The notes beneath the pieces were generated by a model. The model saw nothing but the letters and a program-made list of their open reading frames with translations, was not told where the DNA came from and made no database searches. 64,000 nt of DNA from Verrucomicrobiaceae bacterium. Lineage in GTDB: Bacteria > Verrucomicrobiota > Verrucomicrobiia > Verrucomicrobiales > Verrucomicrobiaceae. Location: positions 62,001 to 126,000 of the forward strand of contig JAIXOU010000141.1 in the NCBI GenBank assembly GCA_027486585.1, written 5' to 3'. The translations under genes and the position numbers were made by a program. Positions within the stretch are counted from its first letter, which is position 1; every line of letters starts with the position of its first letter. Of the stretch, positions 32,242 to 39,920 are shown piece by piece.

Positions 32242-33120
32242 ATGAGTGATAGCGCTATCCATCCTGTGACCGTGCGGCGCATCCGTCTGCCTGACGATGT
32301 GACGACGTTGACAGATGTCACTGCCAGTGAAGAGCCGCTGGAAATCCGTGTCGAAGGCCGCAGCGTCGCCGTCGTCATGCGCACGCCTGGCCATGATGAG
32401 GAGCTCGTTGCGGGCTTTCTGGTCAGTGAAGGCATCATCAAAAACGCCCGCGACATTTTAGAAATCAGCCAATGCCCCAGCACGGGTAATGTTCATGGCA
32501 ACGTCGTCGATGTCCTGCTCGGTGCCGTCGTGGTGAATTGGGATCATCTCACCCGCCATGTCTTCAGCGCCTCCAGTTGCGGTATCTGTGGGAAGACGAG
32601 CATTGAGAGTGTGTTCATGAGCTTTCCACCCGTGACATCGGAATTGTGGGTGAATGCGGAGCTACTGACCACGCTGCCGGCCAAGCTCCGCGCTGCCCAG
32701 GAAACCTTCTCCCAAACCGGCGGTCTGCACGCCAGCGCCATCTTTGATGAACAGGGAGAAATGCTCGTCCTGCGAGAGGATGTGGGCCGTCACAATGCGT
32801 TGGATAAAGTTCTTGGTCACGGCTTAAAAGCGGGCCTGCTTCCCTATAGCCGACACATCCTGCTTGTCAGTGGCCGTGTCTCCTTTGAGCTCATGCAAAA
32901 AGCGCTGGCAGCAGGTGTTCCCATCGTTGCGGCCATTTCAGCCCCTAGCAGTCTCGCGGTTCAGTTCGCTGAAAGTAGCGGTCAGACCTTGGTGGGTTTT
33001 TTGCGTGGTCAGACGATGAATGTCTACACGCATCCTGAGCGCGTGAGTTGTGCTTTAGCCACTTCAGTCCACAAAGAGGAACTCATTGGAGTTGAGCAAA
33101 GCCAGACAGTAATCGGCTAG
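32242..33120 (+). CDS. fdhD: Formate dehydrogenase accessory sulfurtransferase FdhD
   Basis: Transfers sulfur from IscS to the molybdenum cofactor of formate dehydrogenase-type enzymes. The 292-aa protein has the active-site loop C113-GI-C116-GKTSIES, the TGGLHASAIFD segment, the VLREDVGRHNALDKVLG motif and SGRVSFELMQKALAAGVPI. Length is normal. No formate dehydrogenase is in the window. Its last 57 bases overlap the 3' end of the convergent DUF1549/DUF1553 gene. Confidence 0.96.
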   Translation: MSDSAIHPVTVRRIRLPDDVTTLTDVTASEEPLEIRVEGRSVAVVMRTPGHDEELVAGFLVSEGIIKNARDILEISQCPSTGNVHGNVVDVLLGAVVVNWDHLTRHVFSASSCGICGKTSIESVFMSFPPVTSELWVNAELLTTLPAKLRAAQETFSQTGGLHASAIFDEQGEMLVLREDVGRHNALDKVLGHGLKAGLLPYSRHILLVSGRVSFELMQKALAAGVPIVAAISAPSSLAVQFAESSGQTLVGFLRGQTMNVYTHPERVSCALATSVHKEELIGVEQSQTVIG

Positions 33121-34806
33121 GGCAGCATTCAAACTGCCGGTTAGCTTGGTCTGCTGCTCTATGAAAGTAGAACCTGTCGTGATCTCGATTTCCGTGGGTA
33201 TTCGGGAAAGGCAGAGACGTGTGGCGGCGGTCATCAGCTCAGGAATGTCTGAGCCATGCGTTTGAGTGAGGCTCTTGGCTAGCTTCGCAGCCGTGTCATG
33301 GGCAAATTCGGAGTTGAGCAATGCGAGCGCTTGTGGGGCCGTGGTGGATTCATTTCGGCGTGCGCAACTGATCTGCGCATCCGGCCGATCAAAGAGATCA
33401 AAGAGTGGGTGACGGACGTTACGGCGGGCAAAGATGTAGATGCTGCGGCGGGTGTGCTCGCTGATATCTGGGGTGACTTTGTACTGATCTTTGAGAAGGG
33501 TATCACGGATCTCCTTTGGCATGGGTAGCCGAACGCTTGGGCCGCCGGTTTTGAGATTCAGCTGACCTGAAACCGCCAGCATGGCATCACGTAGCATCTC
33601 GCCTGTGAGTCGGCGTTGCGGGAGTTTGGCTTGCCGATAGGTCGGTGATAGGACGATGAGTCGATGAAGCTTTTTGAGGCTCCATCCCGTCTTCGGAAGT
33701 TGAGTGGCGAGCCAGTCAAGCAGGGCAGGATTTGTGGGAGCTTCTCCCTGATGTCCCAGATCCCCGGGCACTGCGGAGAGAGGTTTTCCCAGATGCTGCT
33801 GCCAGATCCGGTTTACAATGGCACGCAGAAAGAGTGCGTTATCTTCATTGGCGAGCCACCGGGCAAAAGCAGCCCGATTAGGTTGAGCCGTGCTGCCAAA
33901 GAGGCGCGGTATGGCCGCTTGGATCTCAGGGCCAGGGCGCTTGAAATCACCGCGAATGAAGACCGTGCTGGCGGGTACGCCTTCGGTGAAAACACGCACG
34001 CTGGGGCCCAGAGGCTTGCGTTCTTTGGGCATGACGGTGTTATCAAAAAAGGCGCGCAGGCGATAAAAGTCGGCCTGACTGATGGGATCATACGGATGAT
34101 CATGACACTGCGCGCATCCGATCGTGAGCCCCAGTCCGACACTGCCGACGGTGGTGGTGATGTCATTCAACAGAACGTGCCGACGCTCGGATTGGTTATT
34201 CAGATCGGGCATGTCTGGCACGGCAAACAAAAACCCGGTGGCCGTTTCATGAGCCTTTGAAAGCTGATCGCCGGCGATCTGAAATTGTACGAATTGATCA
34301 AAGGGCATATCGTCATTCAGCGCTTGGATGATCCAGTCGCGATACTGCCAGGCGCGGCTGCGTTCGGTGTCGTACTCATAGCCATCAGTTTCGGCAAATC
34401 GGGCTAGATCGAGCCACCACTGCGCCCAGTGTTCGCCATAGCGTGGGGAACTCAGGAGTCGATCTACCAGCGCTGCATAGCTGGTCTCTGTTAGCTCCGT
34501 CAGCGTGTTCGGATCAGGCGGCAGACCCGTGAGGTCAAAGGTCACTCGGCGGATGAGCGTGGCCGCATCCGCAGGAGCTGACTCCGGTGGTAAAAGTTCT
34601 TCGAGGCGTGTCTCGACATCAGCTTTTGCCAGCGGCTGAAAGGCCCAGTGCTCGCGGTCTTTCGCCGTGATGGGTGGCTCGTTTTTGACGGGATCCGACG
34701 AGGCGTGAATGGCGACGGCATGAGCTTCCACTGCGCAGATCAGCACGACGAGACAGGTCAAGAGGCTACACAAGCCCTGCACTCTTGGGGGCTCGGTCTT
34801 GCTCAT
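33064..34806 (-). CDS. DUF1549/DUF1553 protein
   Basis: A 580-aa secreted protein of the type common in Planctomycetes and Verrucomicrobia. Start at 34806 (MSKTEPPRVQ) is supported by the ATGA overlap with the upstream DUF1501 stop; a frame start 27 bases earlier is less likely. A signal segment (LLTCLVVLICAVEAHAVA) is followed by WAFQPLAKADV, the DUF1549 part (FDLTGLPPDP, IGCAQCHDHPYDPISQADFYRLRAFF) and the DUF1553 part (NRIWQQHLGKPLSAVPGDLG, ALLDWLATQL). The CAQCH is the family's internal motif; the N-terminal cytochrome domain found in many relatives is absent. Function unknown; often paired with DUF1501. Confidence 0.88.
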   Translation of the reverse strand: MSKTEPPRVQGLCSLLTCLVVLICAVEAHAVAIHASSDPVKNEPPITAKDREHWAFQPLAKADVETRLEELLPPESAPADAATLIRRVTFDLTGLPPDPNTLTELTETSYAALVDRLLSSPRYGEHWAQWWLDLARFAETDGYEYDTERSRAWQYRDWIIQALNDDMPFDQFVQFQIAGDQLSKAHETATGFLFAVPDMPDLNNQSERRHVLLNDITTTVGSVGLGLTIGCAQCHDHPYDPISQADFYRLRAFFDNTVMPKERKPLGPSVRVFTEGVPASTVFIRGDFKRPGPEIQAAIPRLFGSTAQPNRAAFARWLANEDNALFLRAIVNRIWQQHLGKPLSAVPGDLGHQGEAPTNPALLDWLATQLPKTGWSLKKLHRLIVLSPTYRQAKLPQRRLTGEMLRDAMLAVSGQLNLKTGGPSVRLPMPKEIRDTLLKDQYKVTPDISEHTRRSIYIFARRNVRHPLFDLFDRPDAQISCARRNESTTAPQALALLNSEFAHDTAAKLAKSLTQTHGSDIPELMTAATRLCLSRIPTEIEITTGSTFIEQQTKLTGSLNAALADYCLALLNSNEFLFVD

Positions 34807-36191
34807 GCCAGGATGCCTTTCACCACGCGGCATTCGTCCACGCCGGTGAGTTTTTGATCCAGCCCATTGAGCCGGAAGGTGAGCCGCTCATGGTCCAGCC
34901 CCAGCAGATGCAGGATTGTGGCATGCAGATCATGCACATGGACTTTATCCTGCGTCGCACGCAGGCCAAAGGCATCGGTGGCTCCATGGACATGGCCATG
35001 CTTCACACCCGCACCAAAAAGCACCGTGGTGAAGCCCCAGGGATTGTGATCACGCCCGACGCCCTTTTCACTCATGGGCATCCGGCCGAATTCGCCACCC
35101 CAGATCACGAGGGTTTCCTCCAGCAGGCCGCGCTGCTTCAAATCACGAAGCAGTCCCGCTACTGGGATGTCGGTGCGGGCACAGTAGTCGCTGTGATTTT
35201 TGAGGACGTTCTCGTGTGCATCCCAACCATTGGTATCGCCGGAGTAAACCTGCACAAAACGCACGCCGCGCTCAATCATGCGCCTAGCTAGCAGGCAGCG
35301 TGTGCCAAACTCCTGAGTCTTCGGCTGATCGATCCCGTAGAGATGCTTGGTGGCCTCTGATTCACCAGTCAGGTCCACCGCTTCTGGTGCCGCGCTCTGC
35401 ATGCGGAAAGCCAGCTCGTAGGCCCGAATGCGTGCGTCCAGCACAGGATCGCCTGCATGGCGGGCGAGGTGGCCTGCATTCATTTGTTGGATGAGATTCA
35501 GCGTGGCGCGTTGACGGGCACTGCTCTGCGGACTTTGCAAATCCAGGATGGGGTGTTGGCCTGCACGCATGGTGGTGCCTTGATAAGTCGCCGGTAAATA
35601 GCCGCTACCCCAGGCCGCCGGACCGCCCTTCAGACCACCACTGGGATCAGGCATGACGACAAAGGCAGGCATGTCGGCATTCTCTGTGCCGAGTCCATAC
35701 GATACCCAGCTGCCCAGGCTTGGCTTGCCCATTTGGATGGAGCCTGTGTTCATCTGATACACCGATTGCGGATGGTTGACGCTGTCGCCATGGCAACTGC
35801 GGATCACACACATTTCATCGGCCAGTTCGGCCATGTGAGGTAGGAAATCGCTGATCTCGATGCCGCTCTGACCATGCTTCCGAAAAGGTTTCACGGGCGC
35901 GAGCAACGGATTTTGCGCCACTTTCCGACGTGTCTCCACGGCTCCGTAACTGTCAGGCAAAGGCTGGCCCGCATAGCGGATGAGGTCGGGTTTTGGATCG
36001 AAGAGATCGAGATGACTCGGCCCGCCATGCATGAAAAGCCAGATCACGCGCTTGGCCTTTGCTGGGAAATGGCTGCGGACATCGGCCCCCAAACCGTCCG
36101 TTTGCAACAGGTGTGAGGCAGCGATGCTGGACAAACCAACGCCCGCGCTACCGATAAAACGGCGGCGAGAGAAGGTGTCTGAGGTGTCCAT
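34803..36191 (-). CDS. DUF1501 protein, Tat-exported
   Basis: A 462-aa protein with a twin-arginine signal (DTFSRRRFIGSAGVGLSSIA) and the DUF1501 fold (alkaline phosphatase/sulfatase-like superfamily). Hallmarks are RVIWLFMHGGPSHLDLFDPKP, GLPSLGSWVSYGLGTE-type residues, GTRCLLARRMIERGVRFVQVY and VIWGGEFGRMPMSEKGVGRDHNPWGFT. It precedes the DUF1549/DUF1553 gene and overlaps it by four bases, so they are translationally coupled. In most relatives the order is the reverse. Confidence 0.9.
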   Translation of the reverse strand: MDTSDTFSRRRFIGSAGVGLSSIAASHLLQTDGLGADVRSHFPAKAKRVIWLFMHGGPSHLDLFDPKPDLIRYAGQPLPDSYGAVETRRKVAQNPLLAPVKPFRKHGQSGIEISDFLPHMAELADEMCVIRSCHGDSVNHPQSVYQMNTGSIQMGKPSLGSWVSYGLGTENADMPAFVVMPDPSGGLKGGPAAWGSGYLPATYQGTTMRAGQHPILDLQSPQSSARQRATLNLIQQMNAGHLARHAGDPVLDARIRAYELAFRMQSAAPEAVDLTGESEATKHLYGIDQPKTQEFGTRCLLARRMIERGVRFVQVYSGDTNGWDAHENVLKNHSDYCARTDIPVAGLLRDLKQRGLLEETLVIWGGEFGRMPMSEKGVGRDHNPWGFTTVLFGAGVKHGHVHGATDAFGLRATQDKVHVHDLHATILHLLGLDHERLTFRLNGLDQKLTGVDECRVVKGILA

Positions 36192-36333
36192 GGCGTAGAA
36201 ACGGCAGCAGGCGGATGTATCGTTCAGGCTTCCGTGTTTTTAGGCCCTTTGATTCATTCTCTGAGCGAACAGCCCACACGCTCTCCTTGCTACGTCGCTC
36301 TGCCGCGCTAGTCTCCATGCTCCATTTTCCATC

Positions 36334-39135
36334 ATGAGCGCCGAGACCCCTGCCAAGAAGAACTACAAAGACACCGTCCGCCTGCCGAAGACCGACTTCC
36401 CCATGAAGGCGGATCTCGTGACTCGCGAGCCCCAGCGCTTGGCCAAATGGGAAGCGGGTGGCCTTTATCAGCGCATCATGAAGCAGGCCGCCGGACGCCC
36501 GAAGTTCGTCCTGCATGACGGTCCTCCTTTTGCCAATGGCGATGTCCACATGGGCACCGCGCTGAACAAAGTGCTCAAGGACCTGATCGTGAAGTCCAAG
36601 ACCATGGCAGGCTTCCACGCCCCCTATATCCCCGGCTGGGATTGCCACGGCCTGCCCATCGAGTTCAAAGTCGTGAAGGAAGCCAAGGACCTCGCCCCTG
36701 CGGAAGTCCGCACGCGCTCGGAAGCCTACGCCCGCAAGTTCATCGACATCCAGCGCCAGTCCTTCAAGCGCCTCGGCGTCTTCGGCGACTGGGAGAACCC
36801 CTACCTCACGCTCGCGCCGACCTATGAGGCCGACATCATGCGCACCTTTGCCAAGTTCCTGGAGAAAGGCCTCGTCTATCGTGCCAAGCGCCCCGTGCTC
36901 TGGAGCTACGGCGCCCAGACCGCCCTCGCGGAAGCCGAGGTCGAGTATAAAGAAAAGACCTCGCCGGCGATCTATGTGAAGTTTGCTCTGCCTGATGGCA
37001 ATAACCTCGTCATCTGGACCACCACGCCCTGGACCCTGCCTGCCAATCTCGGCATCGCCCTGCACCCCGACTTCGACTACACCGCCGCCACCTTCACCCA
37101 TGAAGATGGCCGCAGTGAGAAACTCATGCTCGCGAACTCCCGCATCGAGGCCTTCAGCGCCAGCACCGGTTTCAAGCTGGATGCCGCCCAGCCGACCTCG
37201 AAGCTCAAAGGCAAAGATCTCCTGGGTAGCGAAGCTCAGCATCCCTTCTTGCCGCGCACGTCGAAGATCATCAACGCCCTTTTCGTCACTGACGACGCCG
37301 GCACCGGCGCTGTCCACATGGCCCCTGGCCACGGCGCGGACGACTACATCGCTGGCAAAGAAAACGGCCTCGACATCCTGTCTCCCGTCGATGACGCCGG
37401 CTGCTTCACCGCCGAGTGCGGCTTGCCCGAGTTCGTCGGTCAGCACGTCTTCAAGAGCAACGAAGGCATCATCGCCATCCTTGAGGGCAAAGGCGCACTC
37501 CTGGGCAACGAAAAATACGTCCATCAGTATCCTCATTGCTGGCGCTCCAAGACCCCCATCATCTTCCGTGCCGTCCCGCAGTTCTTCATTCGCATCGCCG
37601 CCTTCCGCGACGAAGCCCTGAAGGCTATCGACACCGTGAACTGGCTGCCTGCTTGGGGCCGCAACCGCATCTACGGCACTGTCGAAAGCCGTCCCGACTG
37701 GTGCATCTCCCGCCAGCGCACCTGGGGCGTCCCGCTGCCTATCTTCTACGATGCCGAAGGCCAGGCCATCATGGATCACACGATTTCCCTGAAGGTCGCC
37801 GACGCTGTCGAGACGCACGGCACCAACCTCTGGTTCGAAAAAGACGACGCCTTCTGGAGCGACCTCGTCGGCCTGCCTGAGGGCAGTAAGCGCTGCAAAG
37901 ACACCCTCGACGTCTGGATCGACTCCGGTTCCTCTTCCGTCGCCGTATTGGATCGCCACCCCGAGCTCTACTGCCCTGCCGATGTGTATATCGAGGGCAC
38001 CGACCAGCATCGCGGCTGGTTCCAGAGCAGCCTCATGGTCAGCGTCGCCGTCCGTGGCATCGCCCCTTACAAAACCGTCATCACGAATGGCTTCGTCGTT
38101 GATACCAGCGGCAAAAAGATCAGCAAAAGCGACCAGGGCACCGACAAAGCCGCCAAGCCCATGACCGCCGACCACTACTACAACAAGTACGGTGGCGACA
38201 TGGTTCGCCTCTGGGCCGCCAGCGTCGATTACCAAAACGACGTCCCCTTCAGCGAAGAACTCTTCCAGCAAACCGGAGAGAGCTACCGCCGCATCCGCAA
38301 CACCTTCCGCGTGTTGCTGGGCAATCTTCATGACCAGAAAGTGGAACAGGTTTCCAACCTGTCTTCTGATAATGTGGAACAGGTTTCCAACCTGTTTTCC
38401 CAGAACGGACAGGTTACAAACCTGTCCCACTTTACTCTGATCGACCGCTGGATCCTCGAGCGCCTCCACAGCGTTCTCACCGACTGCCTCGCTGGCTACG
38501 CCGCCTACGACTTCCGCAAAGTCGTCACCACCATCACCCAGTTCGTCTCGGGCGATCTCTCCGCGCTCTACATCGACATCACCAAGGACCGGATGTACTG
38601 CGATGCCGCCGACAGCCCCCGCCGTCGCGCCACCCAGGCCACCATCCGCGAGATCACCGAGACACTCACCAAGCTCCTCGCCCCCATCCTCGCCTACACC
38701 GCCGACGAAACCTGGGAGTTCCTCGGCCACTCTGACAGCGTCCACCTTGAGGCCTTCCCGCAGGCGAATTCACTGTTTGCCAACTCCGAGGCCACCGCCG
38801 CCGTCGAAGAACTGCTGAGAGCCCGCGCCGTCATCCAGCAAGCCATCGAAGCTGCCCGTCAGGCCAAAAAGATCGGCTCCAACCTCGAAGCCTCCGTCAA
38901 GCTCACCCTCCCCGAGGCCGGCTTCACCAACCCCGTCTTCCAGGATCTGCCCACCCTCCAAGAATTCTTCATCCTCAGCGACCTCCACATCACCCGTGGT
39001 TCAGAACTCGCTGCCACCGTCGAAGTCTGCACCAACCCCAAATGCGAACGCTGCTGGAAGCTCCTGCCGGATGTCGGAACCATCGAAGCGCATCCGACGC
39101 TCTGCGGAAGGTGTGCTGAGGCTGTTGGAGCATAG
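36334..39135 (+). CDS. ileS: Isoleucyl-tRNA synthetase with inserted repeat element
   Basis: Charges tRNA-Ile (class I synthetase, 933 aa). The HIGH-type motif is HMGT in PFANGDVHMGTALNKVLKD (around residue 72), the editing domain shows TTTPWTLPANLGIAL, the KMSKS motif is ISKS in GKKISKSDQGTDKA (about 595), and the C-terminal zinc finger is CTNPKCERCW...CGRC. Residues 670-699 (VEQVSNLSSDNVEQVSNLFS and GQVTNLSH) are encoded by a 90-bp palindromic repeat and lie in the linker to the anticodon-binding domain; the rest reads normally on both sides (NLHDQK before, FTLIDRWILERL after). Confidence 0.97.
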   Translation: MSAETPAKKNYKDTVRLPKTDFPMKADLVTREPQRLAKWEAGGLYQRIMKQAAGRPKFVLHDGPPFANGDVHMGTALNKVLKDLIVKSKTMAGFHAPYIPGWDCHGLPIEFKVVKEAKDLAPAEVRTRSEAYARKFIDIQRQSFKRLGVFGDWENPYLTLAPTYEADIMRTFAKFLEKGLVYRAKRPVLWSYGAQTALAEAEVEYKEKTSPAIYVKFALPDGNNLVIWTTTPWTLPANLGIALHPDFDYTAATFTHEDGRSEKLMLANSRIEAFSASTGFKLDAAQPTSKLKGKDLLGSEAQHPFLPRTSKIINALFVTDDAGTGAVHMAPGHGADDYIAGKENGLDILSPVDDAGCFTAECGLPEFVGQHVFKSNEGIIAILEGKGALLGNEKYVHQYPHCWRSKTPIIFRAVPQFFIRIAAFRDEALKAIDTVNWLPAWGRNRIYGTVESRPDWCISRQRTWGVPLPIFYDAEGQAIMDHTISLKVADAVETHGTNLWFEKDDAFWSDLVGLPEGSKRCKDTLDVWIDSGSSSVAVLDRHPELYCPADVYIEGTDQHRGWFQSSLMVSVAVRGIAPYKTVITNGFVVDTSGKKISKSDQGTDKAAKPMTADHYYNKYGGDMVRLWAASVDYQNDVPFSEELFQQTGESYRRIRNTFRVLLGNLHDQKVEQVSNLSSDNVEQVSNLFSQNGQVTNLSHFTLIDRWILERLHSVLTDCLAGYAAYDFRKVVTTITQFVSGDLSALYIDITKDRMYCDAADSPRRRATQATIREITETLTKLLAPILAYTADETWEFLGHSDSVHLEAFPQANSLFANSEATAAVEELLRARAVIQQAIEAARQAKKIGSNLEASVKLTLPEAGFTNPVFQDLPTLQEFFILSDLHITRGSELAATVEVCTNPKCERCWKLLPDVGTIEAHPTLCGRCAEAVGA
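38341..38430. repeat. Palindromic repeat element inside ileS
   Basis: Three related palindromes in 90 bp (30 codons). Units at 38341-38362 and 38374-38395 share GTGGAACAGGTTTCCAACCT; the third (38407-38430) reads GGACAGGTTACAAACCTGTC followed by CCAC, so the block is bounded by GTGG and CCAC. Each unit is a near-perfect hairpin (ACAGGTT / AACCTGT). The length is a multiple of three and contains no stop. This is the structure of a REP-like or intergenic palindromic element, here inside a coding gene. Confidence 0.85.
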
Positions 39136-39255: not shown

Positions 39256-39564
39256 ATGATCTTCTCGGAATTGCCAGCATTCACCCATCAGGCAGAAGAG
39301 CATTTGCCCGATGATGAGTTGCTGCGCCTCCAGCTTCATCTCATGGATCGTCCCGATGCAGGAGATGTGATTCCCAGCGGTCGCGGGCTTCGGAAGATTC
39401 GCTGGCGAGGTTCAGGTCGTGGCAAACGCGGCGGCCTGCGAATCATCTACTACTGGGTGACAGAGGATCATGTGATCATTCTCGCCCGCTGTTTTCCCAA
39501 GAACGAACAAGAAAATCTCTCCCCCAATGAACTCAAAGACATCCTCCGCCAGATCAAGCCATGA
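39256..39564 (+). CDS. RelE/HigB-type toxin
   Basis: A 102-aa type II toxin of the RelE/ParE superfamily (HigB-like, DUF1044 type). LQLHLMDRPDAGDVIPSGRG, LRKIRWRGSGRGKRGGLRIIYYW and HVIILARCFPKNEQENLSPNEL are the family pattern, with the basic Arg/Lys cluster expected of a ribosome-dependent mRNA interferase. The gene overlaps the following antitoxin by four bases (toxin-antitoxin order, as in higBA). Confidence 0.85.
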   Translation: MIFSELPAFTHQAEEHLPDDELLRLQLHLMDRPDAGDVIPSGRGLRKIRWRGSGRGKRGGLRIIYYWVTEDHVIILARCFPKNEQENLSPNELKDILRQIKP

Positions 39565-39920
39565 AAACCTCTGAGTTGAACACCATCCATGCCGAAATCG
39601 CCGCGCTACGCAGCGGTAAAACCGCACCTTCTCGTGCCTGGAAGCTCGAAAAGCAGCCAGACGGTAGCGTACGCCGAATCGCCCTGAATCCCGAGGCGGT
39701 GCGCAAAGCTAACTCTGAGAAAGAAGGGATACGCCTAGCCCAGGATGCCCGTGCAGCCCTGAAAGTGACGCAGAAAGACTTTGCCGCTCTGCTTGGCATC
39801 AGCCTGCGGACCCTCCACCAGTGGGAGCAAGGCCGCCGCAAACCAACGGGAGCCGCCTTGACCCTGCTGCGTATCGCCAGTGCGAACCCCAGAGCTGTCA
39901 TGCAGGCAGCACATGCCTGA
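39561..39920 (+). CDS. HigA-type antitoxin with Xre helix-turn-helix
   Basis: A 119-aa DNA-binding antitoxin. The helix-turn-helix is LKVTQKDFAALLGISLRTLHQWEQGRRKP (about residues 68-97), and the first half binds the toxin. Such antitoxins usually repress their own operon. ATGA overlap with the toxin gene gives translational coupling. Confidence 0.87.
   Translation: MKTSELNTIHAEIAALRSGKTAPSRAWKLEKQPDGSVRRIALNPEAVRKANSEKEGIRLAQDARAALKVTQKDFAALLGISLRTLHQWEQGRRKPTGAALTLLRIASANPRAVMQAAHA

Follow-up and report, generated by a model that had tools for sequence, protein, structure and literature searches.

The gene for isoleucyl-tRNA synthetase (IleRS), ileS, of a Verrucomicrobiaceae bacterium (assembly GCA_027486585.1) contains a cluster of three short palindromes, which is translated in frame within the linker between two domains of this essential enzyme. 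The gene is located in a stretch of 64,000 nucleotides (contig JAIXOU010000141.1, positions 62,001 to 126,000), referred to below as the window. The cluster is composed of repetitive extragenic palindromes (REPs), namely a doublet of the REPIN (REP doublet forming hairpins) or BIME (bacterial interspersed mosaic element) type plus an extra direct unit. Very probably, it is associated with a REP-associated tyrosine transposase (RAYT), landed in the inter-domain linker of IleRS, and is most likely neutral. The palindromes belong to a dispersed repeat family, the genome contains a transposase gene with copies of these repeats on both sides, the cluster is read in frame at a domain boundary, and sister species differ at this site. 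The features are as follows.

36334-39135, plus strand: ileS, the host gene, isoleucyl-tRNA synthetase, 933 amino acids (TIGR00392, 831.6 bits against a cut-off of 621.4)
38338-38433, no strand: whole REP cluster, AAAGTGG...CCACTTT, 32 codons, residues 669-700 (ends from 68 copies; fold z-score; model confidence)
38338-38362, plus strand: REP unit 1, AAAGTGG A ACAGGTT TCC AACCTGT, with a mismatched outer pair A-C (from sequence)
38374-38395, plus strand: REP unit 2, GTGG A ACAGGTT TCC AACCTGT, 33 nt after unit 1 (from sequence)
38409-38433, minus strand: REP unit 3, inverted, reading AAAGTGG G ACAGGTT TGT AACCTGT on the minus strand (from sequence)

The ileS gene is the single IleRS match at E ≤ 1e-100 in this genome (assembly 97% complete, 147 contigs). 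Its product displays the Pfam domains tRNA-synt_1 (residues 35-639), Anticodon_1 (704-856), and zf-FPG_IleRS (903-929). The insert is thus placed between the catalytic domain, which ends at residue 639, and the anticodon-binding domain, which starts at residue 704. The original prediction described three ACAGGTT/AACCTGT palindromes at 38341-38430 as REP-like DNA inserted in frame into a tolerant linker of an essential gene, and this description is supported. Exact matches to ACAGGTT-NNN-AACCTGT were located at 38346-38362, 38379-38395, and 38409-38425, with spacings of 33 and then 30; the whole 933-residue frame is open across them, including codons 670-699, and the first two units share 22 identical bases (from GTGG at 38341 and at 38374). 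Three details required revision. The third unit lies in inverted orientation. The proposed bounds GTGG and CCAC are present, but the better extent is 38338-38433, the AAA being 94-99% conserved among the 68 copies. The 30 extra residues do correspond to codons 670-699, but the net gain is about 20 residues (linker of 37 here versus 17 in most other IleRS).

Units 2 and 3 form a head-to-head doublet similar to a REPIN or BIME. Below, G000 denotes the genome of the window, labels from G001 to G060 its genus relatives, L numbers fetched loci, and C numbers contigs. The palindrome spacing within doublets is 30 in ileS, 30 at C129 of G000, and 29 at C83:105.8 kb. With up to two mismatches, the window contains four such palindromes against 0.12 expected, a number reached in none of 100 shuffles; chance is an unlikely source of the palindromes in ileS. 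As a single strand, the 96 bases at 38338-38433 fold with z-scores of -6.5 (DNA) and -6.7 (RNA), and none of 200 shuffles was equally stable. A search of the window against Rfam matched no family. An AlphaFold model of IleRS, based on an alignment of 36 IleRS sequences, has a mean predicted local distance difference test score (pLDDT) of 89.5. The only segments with values below 50 are residues 1-5, 602-606, and 671-686; the last of these lies within the insert, which is thus modelled as disordered.

The same repeat, designated family A, is dispersed in the genome. The search suggested by the original prediction revealed 12 exact palindromes at 8 sites in G000 (clustering within 300 nt), largely outside genes, and none for a control with the reversed pattern. 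In total, 151 palindromes were found in 13 of the 48 genus genomes, while the control gave none in all 48. Among 70 palindromes from 47 fetched loci, searched without the tag, 68 have GTRG, mostly GTGG, at one foot. The consensus of these 68 tagged copies is AAAGTGG-N-ACAGGTT-NNN-AACCTGT-N'. The inner stem was set by the search pattern, and only the outer pair N-N' is informative with regard to covariation: it is A-T in 36 copies, G-C in 23, C-G in 8, and mismatched in one, i.e., paired in 67 of 68. Many, though not all, of the 47 loci display the plus-then-minus pair of a head-to-head doublet. With the common TGC loop, the consensus is open in all six frames. A local tandem duplication or slippage of ileS coding DNA, with no mobile element involved, could account for the two units being 22-nt direct repeats and for the one 33-nt unit by which G000 and G003 differ. 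The same REP, however, occurs at seven other sites of G000, two of them beside a RAYT gene, and one unit in ileS is inverted. This explanation is extremely unlikely and, as the sole origin, is ruled out by the dispersed copies and the inverted unit.

The transposase gene is located on another contig.

G000 C74:40649-41293: RAYT-type transposase gene, 215 amino acids (Y1_Tnp, 33.5 bits, cut-off 23; NF047646, 72.1 bits, cut-off 80)

This gene is flanked on both sides by family A REPs, comprising three exact palindromes and one degenerate partner. Its product possesses HVH and Y, which we take to be the catalytic HUH and tyrosine motifs. A homologue with 87% identity, also with the same REPs on both sides, is present in G056, a genome with 27 palindromes; the next listed homologues share at most 52%. 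The flanked RAYT genes are those of loci L331 and L332. By tag, stem, doublets, and transposase, members of family A are RAYT-linked REPs; their doublets are termed REPINs or BIMEs. Further RAYT genes of the genus are adjoined by tagged hairpins of their own. These include GTAGTGCAACCG..CGGTTGC at L334, L337, L340, and L341, GTAGCGCAACCG at L342, and GTAGTTTGGGCTTTAGCCC at L347 and L348. The first of these hairpins is the second half of another ileS insert, designated B below, and the last one resembles insert C. No tagged hairpin was detected by the rule used at 9 of 30 RAYT loci (L333, L336, L339, L343, L345, L351, L355, L356, and L358). Pairing of RAYT genes with hairpins is therefore common in the genus, though it was not detected at every locus.

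We propose that ileS received a single-stranded REP doublet through the action of the cognate RAYT encoded on C74. In vitro, another TnpAREP has been reported to process its cognate single-stranded REP (PMC8266576). Three features would have allowed the insertion to survive: a consensus open in six frames, an inserted length that preserved the frame, and a location in a disordered linker.

A survey of the ileS linker in sister species covered 48 genus genomes, of which 42 had an IleRS match at E ≤ 1e-100. The linker was readable in 38 genomes, plus G058; the IleRS match was absent or partial in the remaining nine. Among these 39 genomes, the ACAGGTT insert occurs in only one besides G000, namely G003, and the relatives do not all carry the same 30 residues encoded by unrelated DNA, an outcome that would have argued against insertion. 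Several other linkers are occupied by different hairpin families (A to E; the letters are our own labels and assignment was made by eye):

Family A: G000 and G003
Family B (GAGCAAGC..GCTTGC with GCAACC..GGTTGC): G001, G005, G012, and G042; remnants in G039 and G046
Family C (GTTC-NNGCTTTAGCNN): G050 and G056
Family D (CAGATTCAGGGAGGCC..GGCCTCCCTGAATCTG): G016, G041, and G044; in part G055
Family E (CCGCAGATT..AATCTGCGG): G008, G009, G043, and G048
Longer linker F, not counted as an element: G007, G010, G040, and G049
Longer linker F2, not counted as an element: G011, G014, and G059
Short hairpin (score 9), not counted as an element: G020

Short linkers of 13-19 residues with no evident element were found in 12 of the 38 (G002, G013, G018, G019, G021, G023, G037, G038, G052, G053, G054, and G060), and also in G058. 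F and F2 had been considered as hairpin elements; they were dropped because of low inverted-repeat scores and because 400 kb of G010 contained F in ileS alone.

Outside the genus, the linker has 17 residues in 73 of 88 distinct IleRS, with a range of 13-22. Within the genus, it ranges from 13 to 64 residues, with 24 or more in 18 of 38. The outside set was drawn from 80 named loci plus 10 order-level relatives, with the linker measured by alignment in each of the 90; L053, which is the genus member G056, and L041, which repeats L063, were removed. "Outside the genus" here denotes a kinship label for the 10 relatives and an identity of at most 64% for the named loci. An earlier reading by text pattern, which caught only 43 of the 80, was superseded by the alignment. 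Since the outside linkers mostly have 17 and never more than 22 residues, either the linker does not generally tolerate lengthening or elements do not generally reach it. Among the organisms sampled, the change is peculiar to this genus. In our reading, the linker is relaxed in this genus, so that at least five dispersed hairpin families have settled there, varying between species and turning over rapidly. A single site of an essential protein thus seems to have been colonised repeatedly.

The other four families are dispersed as well. Family B gave 12 matches in five of seven genomes (control 0), three of which are the ileS copies. Family C matched 27 times in G056, 20 times each in G016 and G044, six times in G048, three times in G050, once in G003, and not at all in G000 (control 0); the ileS copy accounts for one match in each of G050 and G056. 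The numbers for family E were 3 (G008), 6 (G009), 5 (G048), and 1 (G043), of which 1, 2, 3, and 0, respectively, are in ileS; one further match was found in G055 and none in G016, G041, G044, and G000 (control 0). Exact matches to family D numbered 3 in G016, 10 in G041, 4 in G044, and 6 in G055, including 2, 2, 2, and 1 in ileS, respectively; 4 were also found in G000, 8 in G009, and none in G043. With one mismatch, these numbers rose to 6 (G016), 16 (G041), 13 (G044), 11 (G055), 10 (G000), 25 (G009), and 4 (G043). The controls gave 2 such matches in G016 and 1 in G043, so some of the one-mismatch matches are due to chance.

Different occupants are present in otherwise very similar genes. Compared with G000, DNA identity in the 50 codons before and after the linker is 98.0 and 92.7% in G050 (family C), 94.0 and 97.3% in G044 (family D), and 96.0 and 97.3% in G048 (family E). 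On a tree of IleRS sequences from which the linker was excluded, a minimum of 12 changes among families A to E and none is required (40 rows), and 6 changes for element versus none. This count is approximate, as it leaves out the F, F2, and G020 rows (8 of 48) and is based on a quick tree with 10 open forks. It replaces a first count of 19 changes, in which remnants and F/G had been taken as states. Within family A, the insert of G003 is a plain doublet, 33 nt, i.e., one unit step, shorter than that of G000. Its junction reads as the head of unit 1 and the tail of unit 2, which fits a deletion between the 22-nt direct repeats; the alternative is a gain of the unit in G000 between such repeats.

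Part of the turnover may represent recombination of alleles, mainly for family D. The broader possibility that homologous recombination spread linker alleles between congeners, with few original insertions, appears rather unlikely. In its favour, G016/G041 and G044, from different parts of the tree, share a near-identical family D insert, and G055 has a related one. Some distant pairs also become more alike as the linker is approached; for G044 and G016, identity is 81-88% far upstream and 91-95% close by. Codon conservation around the linker could, however, produce such a rise on its own. Moreover, D or E may have spread by recombination, but this does not explain five unlike dispersed families, and the inserts of families A, B, and C bear GTRG/GTTG tags and correspond to or resemble hairpins adjacent to RAYT genes.

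Two further observations concern the same alignments and searches. Over approximately codons 100-200 after the linker, DNA identity falls to about 70-86% in several pairs that are otherwise 90-97% identical, which reflects either a second variable region or alignment trouble. Second fragments matching the C-terminal end of IleRS, apart from the gene, were detected in G016 (L391, C2:1369260-1369391) as well as in G008, G011, G015, and G020. Some of these may be contig breaks; the G016 copy closes a 930-codon open frame that is otherwise unlike a gene.

Several results weigh against insertion by RAYT-linked elements as the general explanation. For family A, no ileS allele that lacks the insert but has exactly matching flanks was found. 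Unit 1 of the insert has a mismatched outer pair, and of the 64 possible loops, 3, 8, and 25 create a stop in the three forward frames. The C74 protein falls below the cut-off of the NCBIfam model for REP-associated tyrosine transposases, NF047646. The genome of G003 carries the insert, yet it has no RAYT match at E ≤ 1e-30; of its three Y1_Tnp matches, the best has an E-value of 9.6e-7. The insert therefore seems to persist there without a RAYT. For the other families, the strict B pattern matches only the ileS copy in G005, two of the three exact D matches in G016 are in ileS, and D and E have no demonstrated transposase. The hairpins of family C are short, the F and F2 linkers have no strong palindrome, and the F sequence occurs once in 400 kb of G010, in ileS itself. 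Finally, the strongest inverted repeat of the gene is located in the linker for only 10 of 38 ileS genes.

This last number also bears on the idea that selection keeps the insert, either because an mRNA hairpin slows ribosomes or controls decay of the ileS mRNA, or because a longer linker alters the enzyme. The very stable RNA fold (z-score of -6.7), the site between domains, and the fact that unlike families form hairpins at the same place, as though the hairpin and not the sequence mattered, agree with this idea. It is nevertheless improbable, since 12 of 38 genus linkers, plus that of G058, have no evident element, and the linker mostly has 17 residues outside the genus. Judged from sequence, the effect of the REP cluster on the enzyme is most likely neutral, and no sign of a benefit was found. 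We regard as a long shot a scenario in which the linker is a hot spot preferred over equally tolerant loops, RAYT/REP families succeed one another there, and the hairpin is advantageous in some lineages. If true, an essential translation enzyme would have gained a fast-evolving control element from a transposon landing site.

In-gene insertion of REPs is not as rare as originally assumed. The same REP is in frame in another gene of G000, carB, and in several genes of relatives.

G000 C142, L150:4457-7756, minus strand: carB, with a single family A REP in frame, in a frame different from that in ileS

The carB REP is translated as ..YQSGTGLQPVQG.. (SGTGLQPV), versus KVEQVSNL in ileS, so that at least two reading frames are used. 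It occurs in 1 of 35 genus carB genes readable at that loop, while the loop is also longer, without a family A REP, in 10 of 34 relatives read there. A second stretch of carB, at residues ~474-530 (L167-L226), varies from 46 to 92 residues among 38 genes, with a core like KKLGFSD-QIA kept.

For G016, in which all 27 palindromes at 18 sites were examined, five sites are within genes according to the codon score on both sides. These are in cysJ, polA, a 1417-residue frame, a gene for a PVC heme-type protein, and a CusA-type efflux gene. A sixth site, in mobA, is recognised by a family match below the cut-off of that family. The corresponding numbers are 0 of 13 in G005, 1 of 7 examined in G041 (a subset of its sites), 1 of 1 in G003, 0 of 1 in G011, and 1 of 7 besides ileS in G000. 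The codon score is reached at random positions of these loci with frequencies of 0.67 (G016), 0.59 (G005), 0.67 (G041), and 0.45 (G000). The fractions for REPs are lower, so REPs are under-represented in genes, as is expected if most such insertions are lost.

Some candidates were not counted as in-gene. The 467-residue frame over the C83 doublet (L151) was rejected because its 3-keto-disaccharide hydrolase match starts far downstream and the flanking codons score as non-coding. A REP that reads in frame immediately ahead of the FTLMEV pseudopilin motif (L149:2177-3283, minus strand, C139 of G000), perhaps within a cleaved leader, was set aside because the start codon is uncertain. In G016, a family A REP at C4:562315 (L271:4016) lies inside the carB open frame; as it sits right at the 5' end, about 80 nt short of the first homology-matched codon, it was taken as upstream of the gene. 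In G005, a gene for an ATP-dependent DNA ligase with a fused exonuclease-like part (C58, L286:3081-5972, minus strand) has a REP in frame directly preceding the KYDGIR motif. This gene matches by family on both sides of the REP, though G005 scores 0 of 13 by codon score.

Intragenic REPs were described in Verrucomicrobia in 2013. In that study, they are most numerous, among GTAG families, in Opitutus terrae (Di Nocera et al., 2013; PMC3733652). The authors name DNA polymerase I, DNA ligase, and tRNA synthetases as targets, the latter in X. oryzae, E. lithoralis, and S. alaskensis, and consider neutral insertion in linkers and loops. They also report different REPs at about the same site of recB in X. 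campestris and X. oryzae. The repeats studied here share with those GTAG REPs, as far as described there, the GTRG-tagged short palindromes, head-to-head dimers, flanked RAYT genes, and insertions in open reading frames (20-30 residues in that study). The GTAG-20 family of O. terrae is mostly GTGG-tagged, as is family A, a comparison made by tag only. Unlike the single same-site pair in two species presented in that text, five dispersed families occupy one linker of an essential gene here, with flanks up to 98% identical.

As in the P. fluorescens REPINs, REP doublets form hairpins and each group is found beside its own RAYT (Bertels and Rainey, 2011; PMC3116915). Those REPINs are presented there as extragenic, whereas the ileS cluster is in frame in an essential gene and has a third unit. 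Rickettsia palindromic elements (RPEs), as described in PMC10969869 and PMC3733652, are also palindromic DNA located in frame in unrelated functional genes. They are described as about 150 bp in length with a conserved peptide, in contrast to the GTGG tag, ~25-nt units, and at least two reading frames found here; the RPE end given for R. conorii is CGTC (PMC3733652), and that of family A is AAAGTGG. An RPE-like conserved peptide was rejected on the basis of the unlike peptides and two frames in ileS and carB. A comparable ileS case was not found in the open-licence literature searched.

The observation behind the original prediction is thus confirmed and its interpretation partly supported. 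An intragenic REP is of a known kind; what is new is the genus-wide occupancy and turnover of several families at one linker of an essential gene. The ileS genes of this genus offer a natural allele series, namely one essential enzyme with different palindromic elements at one place in nearly identical backgrounds. Such a series could serve to measure the rate of REP movement, the neutrality of in-frame insertions, and the effect of hairpins on translation. The case is also a warning that what looks like a protein linker in these genomes can be mobile DNA that is translated.

Several features of the window surround ileS. An 865-codon open frame antisense to the gene (36148-38745, minus strand) is mechanical and probably results from codon bias. 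Directly after ileS (39256-39920, plus strand) is a pair of genes encoding a RelE-like protein (PF06296, 27.1 bits, cut-off 27) and an HTH_3 protein (37.7 bits), which, from these matches, is likely a type II toxin-antitoxin system. On the other side (33064-36191, minus strand), a PSCyt2/PSD1 (DUF1549/DUF1553) gene is followed by a DUF1501 gene, a gene pair typical of these bacteria.

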